A DNA stretch of 64,000 bases from an uncultured Gemmatimonadota bacterium (lineage in GTDB: Bacteria > Gemmatimonadota > Gemmatimonadetes > Gemmatimonadales > Gemmatimonadaceae), in NCBI GenBank assembly GCA_903882745.1, contig CAIRYG010000014.1:124001-188000 (forward strand), given 5' to 3'. The position numbers and the translations under genes are program-made. The notes beneath the pieces were generated by a model. It was not told the DNA's origin. It searched no databases and saw only the letters and a list, made by a program, of their open reading frames with translations. This document shows positions 3,121 to 5,708 of the stretch, one piece after another. Each line of letters begins with the position of its first letter. Positions within the stretch are counted from its first letter, which is position 1.

Positions 3121-4476
3121 TCAGTCGCGAAGTGCGACTACGATGTCGGCGAGATTGGTGCCGGTGGGGCCGGTGCGGAGCAGGGCCCCAATGCGGTCGA
3201 GGGCGGGATATGCGTCGCAGCGGCGTAGGTGGCTCGCGGGATCCAGCCCTGCCGCGACGAGGCGGCCCCAGCTCCGCTCGTCGATCATGGCGCCCGCGGC
3301 ATCGGTGGGGCCGTCGCGTCCATCAGTGCCGGCGGCCAGCACGGTGACGCGCGGGGTGGCTGTCACGCGCGTACTCGGGTCACGGAGTGCCTGCTGTGCG
3401 AGCTGATGCAGCTCGATCGCCGCCGCGAGCGCGAACTGTTGATTGCGTCCGCCGAGCCCGTGATCACGCGGGAGATCGACGGTCGTCTCTCCACCGGAAA
3501 TCAGGCAACTTCCCGCGGCGGCAAACCATGCGGCGCGCGCGAAGGTGCGCCCCGCGTGCTCTGCCTCGCCGGCGAGCGGTTCTTTGGAGAGCAGCGCGGT
3601 TCGTCCCGACGCCGTCGCTGCGATGGCCGCGGCTTCGAGGGCGGCGCGATTGCCGATCACCACGGGCGCGCGCACATGTGCGAGCGCGGGGGAGCCTGGC
3701 TTGGCGGTCTCTGGACGATCGCCACTACGGACCGCGCCCAGGTAGGCGGCCAGCGAGAGCGGGATGCGTCGCGCGAGTTCGGTTTCGCGCAGCATGAGTT
3801 CGACGTCGGCGGCGCGGAGCGCGTCGAGGCTGTAGGGGCCGCTCGCGATATCGGCGGGGTCGTCGCCTGTGACATCCGAGAGCATAATCGGGTGAACGGC
3901 GCTCGGCGCGAAGGCCGCGGCGAGGCGTCCGGCGCCCCAGCGCGCAAACCGTTTGCGAATCGCGTTGGTGGCGCGAATCGGAAGCCCCGACTCGATCAGG
4001 AGGGCGTTGAGTGCAGCGAGATCCTCGCTGCGCACACCGTCGACTGGGGCGCCGATGAGTGCGCTCGTGCCGCCGGAGATCAGGGCGATGACGACGTCGG
4101 CTGGCGCGACGTCGTCGCTGAGTGCGGCGAGTGCGTTGGCACACGCGAGTGACTGCGGGCCCGGGATGGGATGATCGCCGACCACCGGGCGCAGTTGCGC
4201 AGGGGTGTCGGGGTCGTGGCGTTCGGCGATCACGAGTCCGCCCGCGAGTGGCAGTCCGTGCTCGGCAAGGAACGCGACGGCGGCCTGTGCCATCGCGGGG
4301 GCGGCCTTGCCGGTGGCGACAATCCAGTGCTGCTGCGCGCGCGCACTGGGACTGCAATCAATCGATCGGAGCAGTGCGCTCCGCGTCGCCGGGCCGGGAG
4401 CGGCGGCGAGCAGCGCGGCACGAAAAACCTCGCCCGCTACGTGGGCAGCGGGCGAGGTCGGTTCGAGCGGAGTCAT
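3121..4476 (-). CDS. Glycerate 2-kinase (MOFRL / GckA-TtuD family)
   Basis: 451 residues. Predicted to phosphorylate D-glycerate to 2-phosphoglycerate. The N-terminal half has the DUF4147 fold with ATGKAAPAMAQAAV and ALISGGTSALI. The C-terminal MOFRL domain carries ISGGETTVDL, the glycine-rich GLGGRNQQFALA and the AAGTDGRDGPTDAAGA stretch. Length matches the family. It follows the selenoperoxiredoxin gene by 7 bases and precedes aguB by 10, so it is probably cotranscribed, although no metabolic link to the neighbours is obvious. Family confident; substrate by homology. Confidence 0.9.
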   Translation of the reverse strand: MTPLEPTSPAAHVAGEVFRAALLAAAPGPATRSALLRSIDCSPSARAQQHWIVATGKAAPAMAQAAVAFLAEHGLPLAGGLVIAERHDPDTPAQLRPVVGDHPIPGPQSLACANALAALSDDVAPADVVIALISGGTSALIGAPVDGVRSEDLAALNALLIESGLPIRATNAIRKRFARWGAGRLAAAFAPSAVHPIMLSDVTGDDPADIASGPYSLDALRAADVELMLRETELARRIPLSLAAYLGAVRSGDRPETAKPGSPALAHVRAPVVIGNRAALEAAAIAATASGRTALLSKEPLAGEAEHAGRTFARAAWFAAAGSCLISGGETTVDLPRDHGLGGRNQQFALAAAIELHQLAQQALRDPSTRVTATPRVTVLAAGTDGRDGPTDAAGAMIDERSWGRLVAAGLDPASHLRRCDAYPALDRIGALLRTGPTGTNLADIVVALRD

Positions 4477-4483
4477 GCCAGAA

Positions 4484-5050
4484 TTATGGCGTAGTGCGTG
4501 CTGCTTTGGCCACCGCTGCGCCGAGTTCGTCGTAGGAGTCGGCGGACAGCTCGCGGAAGGGCGACATCACGTGGGCGATCCGTCCGTCAGGGCCGACCAC
4601 GAAGACATTCCGCTTTGCGAAGTTGATGAGCGGAATCTTGGAGTCGTAGAGTTTCACCACGTCTCCCTTTGCGTCGCTGGCAAACATGATCGGGAATTTT
4701 TTATCCCGTGCCCAGTTCACCAACACGGTGTCGTCGTCGGTGCTGATGCCGATGACCGTCACCTTGTTGCCGTTATTGAAGAGCTTGGCGTACTGATCAC
4801 GGTACGCCTCCATTTGGACTGTTCAGCCCTTGGTCCGTGCCTTGGGGAAGAAGGCGAGCACGACCGTCTGTCCCTTGAGATCGGAGAGATGAATCGGCTT
4901 GTCTGTCAGCCCACCCTTGGTGGCACCGGGGAGCGAGAAGTCTGGAGCGATGTCGCCGACTTTTGGCATGGTTTGCGCGTGTAGGGTCACAGCCGGGAGC
5001 GCGAGGAGTAGCGCGGCGGCGGTGATGCGGATGAGTGCCGTGGGGTTCAC
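4484..5050 (-). CDS. Secreted peroxiredoxin, predicted selenoprotein (in-frame UGA at the peroxidatic position)
   Basis: 188 residues if the UGA at 4823-4825 (codon 76) is read as selenocysteine. Start is GTG at 5050, overlapping the stop of the upstream paralogue (GTGA). A Sec-type signal peptide ends around LHAQT. The AhpC/TSA domain follows: PKVGDIAPDFSLPGATK, VVLAFFPKARTKG, then U, then TVQMEAYRDQY. The neighbouring paralogue reads FFPKARTSG-C-TAQM, so the UGA falls exactly on the peroxidatic Cys. The frame on both sides of the UGA is intact and conserved to residue 188 (VGPDGRIAHVMSP). No resolving Cys is visible, suggesting a 1-Cys (1-Sec) enzyme. Calling only the ATG at 4813 gives a 109-residue fragment without a nucleophile. 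A recent nonsense mutation is the alternative, but the downstream hairpin argues against it. Confidence 0.85.
4787..4808 (-). promoter_or_regulatory. Predicted bacterial SECIS element
   Basis: In the mRNA sense the sequence is GGCGUAC, loop CGUGAUCA, GUACGCC: a perfect 7-bp stem with an 8-nt loop. It begins 14 nt after the UGA at 4825-4823. The loop starts 21 nt after the UGA and has G at its second position. Known bacterial SECIS rules (stem in the coding region just after UGA, short apical loop with a G in the first two positions, roughly 16-37 nt from UGA to loop) are met. The element lies inside codons for EAYRDQYAK. SelB binding is an inference from this geometry. Confidence 0.78.
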
Positions 5051-5616
5051 TTGGCTCCTGTGATTTTCTTGAGTTGCGCGGCGAGCTCGGTGTAGGACTC
5101 CTCGACCATCGGCTTGAAGGGCTTGGTGGTGGAGGCAATCTTGCCGTCTGGTCCCACGATGTAGAGGAGCCGGTTTTCCATTGAGCCGTTGAAGGCTCCG
5201 TATGCCTTGCCCATGGCGCCGTTGGCGTCGCTGGCGAAGAGCATTGGGAAGTTGGCTTCCTTGGCCCAGGCCGCGAGCGTCGTGTCGGCGTCCACGCTCA
5301 CTCCAATCACGGTGATGCCCTTGCCGCTGTTGAACATGCTCGCCCACAGATCGCGATAGTGGGTCATCTGCGCGGTGCAGCCGGAGGTGCGCGCTTTCGG
5401 GAAGAAGGCGATGACGACGGTCTGTCCCTTGAGCTTGGACAGCGACACCGGGGCGCTCGTGACGCCAGCCTTGGTGGCACCAGGCAAGGTGAAGTCGGGG
5501 GCCACGTCGCCGACCTTTGGCCCTACGTCCTGCGCCTGAGCTGATACCGGAACAAACGCCGACGCGGCAATAAGGGTCAACGCGAGGGGCAGGATCGTGA
5601 CGGCGAAGCGGCGCAT
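5047..5616 (-). CDS. Secreted peroxiredoxin, cysteine form
   Basis: 189 residues. AhpC/TSA thiol peroxidase with an N-terminal signal peptide (hydrophobic stretch followed by SAQAQ). The peroxidatic Cys80 lies in KARTSGCTAQM, and the C-terminal part contains YIVGPDGKIAS. It is the tandem paralogue of the following gene: same signal-peptide plan, GATK, LKGQTVV and FFPKART segments. A clear Shine-Dalgarno-like AGGAG precedes the ATG at 5616. Its stop overlaps the GTG start of the UGA-containing paralogue, so the pair is probably translationally coupled. Expected to reduce peroxides in the periplasm; the electron donor is unknown. Confidence 0.93.
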   Translation of the reverse strand: MRRFAVTILPLALTLIAASAFVPVSAQAQDVGPKVGDVAPDFTLPGATKAGVTSAPVSLSKLKGQTVVIAFFPKARTSGCTAQMTHYRDLWASMFNSGKGITVIGVSVDADTTLAAWAKEANFPMLFASDANGAMGKAYGAFNGSMENRLLYIVGPDGKIASTTKPFKPMVEESYTELAAQLKKITGAK

Positions 5617-5622
5617 CGATGA

Positions 5623-5627
5623 ACTCC
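5623..5627 (-). promoter_or_regulatory. Shine-Dalgarno site of the peroxiredoxin pair
   Basis: AGGAG on the minus strand, about 6 bases before the ATG at 5616. It is one of the stronger ribosome sites in a region where many starts lack one, and it fixes the start of the Cys peroxiredoxin. Confidence 0.6.
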
Positions 5628-5692
5628 TGAGAATGGACGACCGGGCAAACAGCTCTTGAATAATGGCCGGATTCGGAGCGCACGCAACGCCC

Positions 5693-5708
5693 CACGTTAT
5701 TTAACGTG
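5693..5708. repeat. Short inverted repeat between the lipid kinase and peroxiredoxin genes
   Basis: CACGTT-ATTT-AACGTG, a perfect 6-bp stem with a 4-nt loop, lies in the 109-base gap between the lipid kinase stop and the peroxiredoxin start. It could be an operator or a weak hairpin; it has no clear U-tract. No other feature is visible in the gap apart from the ribosome site. Confidence 0.4.

Follow-up and report, generated by a model that had tools for sequence, protein, structure and literature searches.

The window, a 64,000-nucleotide stretch of DNA from an uncultured Gemmatimonadota bacterium, contains an apparently broken peroxiredoxin gene that almost certainly encodes a functional, secreted selenium enzyme able to destroy peroxides. 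Taken as a whole, the data are very probably best explained by a selenoprotein that would carry selenocysteine (Sec) at UGA codon 76 and act as an exported 1-Sec peroxidase. The sequence basis for this reading is the frame, the position of the UGA, the Sec machinery, a conserved and covarying hairpin, purifying selection and co-occurrence of the gene with the machinery. The gene and its neighbour contain the following features.

4484-5050, minus strand: predicted selenocysteine peroxiredoxin gene (single in-frame TGA, AhpC-TSA match, 95 TGA orthologues).
4823-4825, minus strand: UGA codon 76, predicted Sec at the position of the peroxidatic Cys (TxxU), aligned with the Cys found in the paralogue and in 28 further Cys copies.
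4787-4808, minus strand: predicted bacterial SECIS hairpin within the coding region (fold, synonymous freeze, compensatory stem changes, pattern scans with a reversed control).
4976-5050, minus strand: predicted signal peptide, VNPTALIRITAAALLLALPAVTLHA then Q (hydrophobic N-terminus with an AxA-like end, shared by orthologues).
5047-5616, minus strand: tandem Cys paralogue with a predicted signal peptide, whose single Cys is the peroxidatic one (ORF and Pfam match).
5047-5050, minus strand: four-base overlap GTGA of the Cys-gene stop and the Sec-gene start (sequence).

The AhpC/TSA peroxiredoxin frame runs on the minus strand for 188 codons from GTG 5050 to TAA 4484, and its sole internal stop is the TGA at 4825-4823. 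With this TGA read as Sec the protein scores 100 bits against the Pfam AhpC-TSA model, whose gathering score is 26. A first-pass annotation, made from the DNA letters, had proposed a probable selenoprotein in a frame intact except for one TGA at codon 76, matching the peroxidatic Cys of the tandem paralogue. The window sequence agrees on the frame, the two proteins align as described (KARTSG-C-TAQM in the paralogue, KARTKG-U-TVQM here), and the selenoprotein proposal is supported by the machinery, the UGA orthologues, the covarying hairpin and the constraint past the UGA that are described below. Standard gene calling yields a 109-amino-acid ORF from ATG 4813, and ordinary annotation would list the UGA peroxiredoxin as a 109-residue fragment or a pseudogene.

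The genome holding the window (3.06 Mb, 14 contigs, 100% complete) encodes the machinery for Sec insertion that had been suggested as a check. The genes selA (559 bits), selB (357 bits) and selD (385 bits) are all found above their curated cut-offs, together with a tRNA-Sec (85 bits) to which ARAGORN assigns the anticodon tca (UCA). The tRNA-Sec gene directly adjoins selD (G000:C11:34344-35447), and selA and selB lie elsewhere on that contig. The alpha subunit of formate dehydrogenase, encoded outside the window (G000:C12:22033-23910), has one in-frame TGA in the sequence SCNRTUHAPSVV and is, judging from this, a probable second selenoprotein of the genome. The peroxiredoxin is thus not the sole UGA-encoded Sec candidate of this organism.

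The in-frame UGA is widespread among relatives. In 179 genomes of the same bacterial family, most peroxiredoxin matches that bear an internal stop have a single TGA, and in the orthologues extracted from them it falls at the same alignment column in 95 of 95, a count that is partly a product of selection, as these regions were chosen because the search reported one TGA. An independent scan for a UGA followed by the hairpin pattern, which does not share this bias to the same extent, matches 102 of 179 genomes in the family and 114 of 249 in the phylum; the reversed pattern, used as a control, gives no match in either set. The UGA orthologues span more than 20 genera and come from independent assemblies. 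Among the best matches, almost every named record is a Gemmatimonadota MAG, and the nearest, at 96% identity, derives from Lake Pavin. Comparison of orthologues at codon 76, also suggested at the outset, returned UGA or Cys, with UGA in Sec-competent lineages.

The hairpin at 4808-4787 has the sequence GGCGUAC-CGUGAUCA-GUACGCC, a perfect 7-bp stem closed by an 8-nt loop, CGUGAUCA, which has G at its second position and begins 21 nt past the UGA. This is the SECIS geometry that had been described for it. On folding the hairpin formed, and as a single sequence it is moderately unusual (z = -2.2, 5 of 200 shuffles equally stable). Across orthologues it is conserved and covarying. Synonymous choice in UGA genes is nearly fixed from codon +5 to codon +13 (Tyr TAC 95/95, Gln CAG 95/95, Asp GAT 93/95), whereas the codons of the same residues vary in Cys homologues (Tyr TAC 15 and TAT 14, Gln CAG 12 and CAA 6). 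Over the seven pairs of the stem, pairing is kept in 664 of 665 cells of the UGA alignment. At the basal pair, 74 distinct sequences comprise 50 with G-C, 13 with U-A, nine with C-G, one with A-U and one that does not pair. Since the 3' base of this pair occupies the wobble (third) position of a conserved Ala codon, its changes follow its partner in the RNA rather than the encoded residue. Double changes also occur at stem pairs two and four. A chance hairpin is rejected: although z is weak (-2.2) for the single sequence, the covariation, the frozen synonymous sites and the zero reversed-pattern matches speak against it. By these sequence comparisons the conserved, covarying hairpin has the features expected of a SECIS. 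An Rfam search of 4400-5700 gave matches at chance level only.

Coding constraint persists past the UGA, in keeping with the conservation on both sides of it noted at first reading. Against its nearest relative, the window gene has a dN/dS of 0.05 upstream of the UGA and 0.10 downstream of it. Divergent pairs show a higher dN/dS in the part following the UGA than in the part preceding it; these pairs are near saturation, which has probably helped to raise the ratio, and they carry no weight in our conclusions.

The UGA gene occurs together with the Sec machinery. Both the UGA gene and tRNA-Sec are present in 93 genomes and neither in 66, with nine genomes having only the UGA gene and 11 only tRNA-Sec (Fisher p = 4e-27, although this is no formal test as the genomes share ancestry). 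Of the nine genomes in which the UGA gene but no tRNA-Sec was detected, seven contain a full-length selA above cut-off and another gives a partial selA match, a result that suggests assembly gaps as the likely reason for the missing tRNA. None of the ten Cys-only genomes sampled has selA, and four of these assemblies consist of a single contig. A protein tree requires at least eight changes between Sec and Cys, and lineages with Cys appear mostly to have lost the Sec machinery. Two genomes, G027 and G028 (L035, L040), encode Cys at codon 76 and lack the hairpin but have kept selA, and G028 also has tRNA-Sec. The link between UGA and machinery is therefore imperfect; these genomes represent Sec-to-Cys swaps that either are recent or took place before the machinery was lost.

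These data bear on two alternatives in which the UGA is not a Sec codon. There is virtually no chance that the gene is a pseudogene created by a recent nonsense mutation or a sequencing error, or that translation yields only the 109-residue fragment starting at ATG 4813. The fragment is what standard annotation would give, but it would lack the peroxidatic residue and the N-terminal strands and would presumably be no enzyme; purifying selection acts on both sides of the UGA, and the presence of the same codon in the 95 extracted orthologues, across genera and independent assemblies, refutes a pseudogene or an error. It is very improbable that the UGA is decoded as an ordinary amino acid, either through reassignment to Trp or through near-cognate read-through. 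The frame would be open under any sense reading, but the aligned residue is a catalytic Cys and not Trp, UGA serves as the normal stop of the paralogue just upstream, and the UGA gene follows tRNA-Sec and selA, with Cys in its place where both are absent. Reassignment to Trp is rejected, since the aligned residue is the catalytic Cys and UGA tracks the Sec machinery.

The predicted selenoprotein is most similar in sequence to archaeal Bcp and Mycobacterium AhpE. The AlphaFold model is a confident peroxiredoxin fold (pLDDT 89) that matches BCP-type and typical peroxiredoxins. The motif PKARTKGU fits PxxxTxxC/U, and both its Thr and the protein's Arg147 are conserved in the alignment; across the UGA orthologues the Thr of TxxU is present in 93 of 95 and the Arg is invariant. 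The Pro of PxxxTxxU is kept in 46 of 95 and is otherwise replaced by Phe, Tyr, Ile or Val, for example in other genera (L056, L061, L063), which is unusual for peroxiredoxins. No further Cys occurs in the mature chain of any of the 95 Sec and 29 Cys proteins, so these proteins lack the resolving Cys that defines a 2-Cys (or Sec-Cys) peroxiredoxin. The signal peptide noted at first reading was borne out by a simple hydrophobicity rule (not SignalP), under which 94 of 95 UGA orthologues and 29 of 29 Cys homologues have a signal-peptide-like N-terminus. We conclude that the product is a predicted exported 1-Sec peroxiredoxin, for which peroxide reduction, export and an external reductant are inferred.

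It is unlikely that the protein is a selenoprotein without peroxidase activity, such as an exported 1-Sec thiol-disulfide oxidoreductase or a peroxide sensor. The missing resolving Cys, the loss of the motif Pro in about half of the UGA orthologues and weak matches to ResA-like models would suit such a function. The motif is however TxxU and not UxxC, its Thr and the Arg are retained as described above, and the best matches are peroxiredoxins of the BCP and AhpE types.

For the exported peroxidase we propose the following mechanism, in which Sec insertion itself, export, peroxidase activity, the reductant and the division of labour between the twins are deduced. SelB, with GTP and Sec-tRNA-Sec, would bind the hairpin downstream of codon 76, whose UGA the ribosome would decode as selenocysteine. 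The signal peptide would export the product, probably into the periplasm. In that compartment the peroxidatic selenol, held in position by the conserved Thr73 and Arg147, would reduce peroxide to water or alcohol. As the mature protein has no other Cys, the oxidised selenium would need an outside reductant, and may be re-reduced by a thiol or a thioredoxin-like protein in a 1-Sec mechanism. The tandem Cys twin would presumably perform the same chemistry without selenium.

Sec peroxiredoxins of the TxxU type form a well-established family of bacterial selenoproteins (PMC1088965, PMC1794560, PMC5029168, PMC9312934, PMC13188914), in line with the earlier remark that such enzymes are known in some bacteria. 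The window protein shares with the known members (TxxU; COG1225/Bcp) the AhpC/TSA fold, the peroxidatic Sec, a SECIS just past the UGA and the motif PxxxTxxU. PrxU of Eubacterium acidaminophilum is a Sec peroxiredoxin according to Soehling 2001, as cited in PMC9312934; the window protein is homologous to PrxU (NCBIfam NF040737) over about 135 residues and scores 49.4 bits against a cut-off of 270, which places it outside that equivalog. The BCP/PrxQ thiol peroxidase model (NF006960) is among the best matches, but its 69.2 bits are below the curated cut-off of 140. Archaeal Bcp structures (2ywn, 3hjp) and Mycobacterium AhpE (1xxu) are among the best sequence and structure matches. BCP/PrxQ, archaeal Bcp and AhpE all have Cys where the window protein has Sec.

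Judged by sequence, the Gemmatimonadota Sec peroxiredoxin is a new, widespread clade within the known TxxU Sec peroxiredoxins. It is phylum-wide in Gemmatimonadota, and its predicted export and its lack of any further Cys in the mature chain may also set it apart from the known TxxU members. A literature search, incomplete in coverage, on Gemmatimonas/Gemmatimonadota or periplasmic peroxiredoxin together with selenium returned no description of the protein. We lean, with some reserve, towards the view that this undescribed exported 1-Sec clade is a main defence of Gemmatimonadota against peroxide outside the cytoplasm, in which Sec/Cys twins occur in tandem and Sec and Cys have been exchanged repeatedly.

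Bacterial selenoproteins are best known from anaerobes. Gemmatimonadota are common in soil and freshwater, and roughly half of the sampled genomes of this phylum have the UGA-encoded peroxiredoxin. The lineage may serve as a natural experiment on the reasons for which bacteria retain or give up selenium in a single enzyme, and the replicated Sec-to-Cys (or reverse) swaps offer a system in which to ask what selenium buys a peroxidase. Export, if confirmed, would raise the question of how selenium is handled extracytoplasmically without a resolving Cys.

The tandem paralogue (5616-5047) has TGC at the codon matching the UGA and scores 93 bits against Pfam AhpC-TSA. Its GTGA overlap with the Sec gene suggests one operon in which translation of the two genes may be coupled. 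In this genus the Sec peroxiredoxin is usually found beside a Cys twin, and the Cys twins form one clade in the protein tree. One genome of the same genus has two tandem UGA peroxiredoxins, each with its own hairpin (L062:737-1813).
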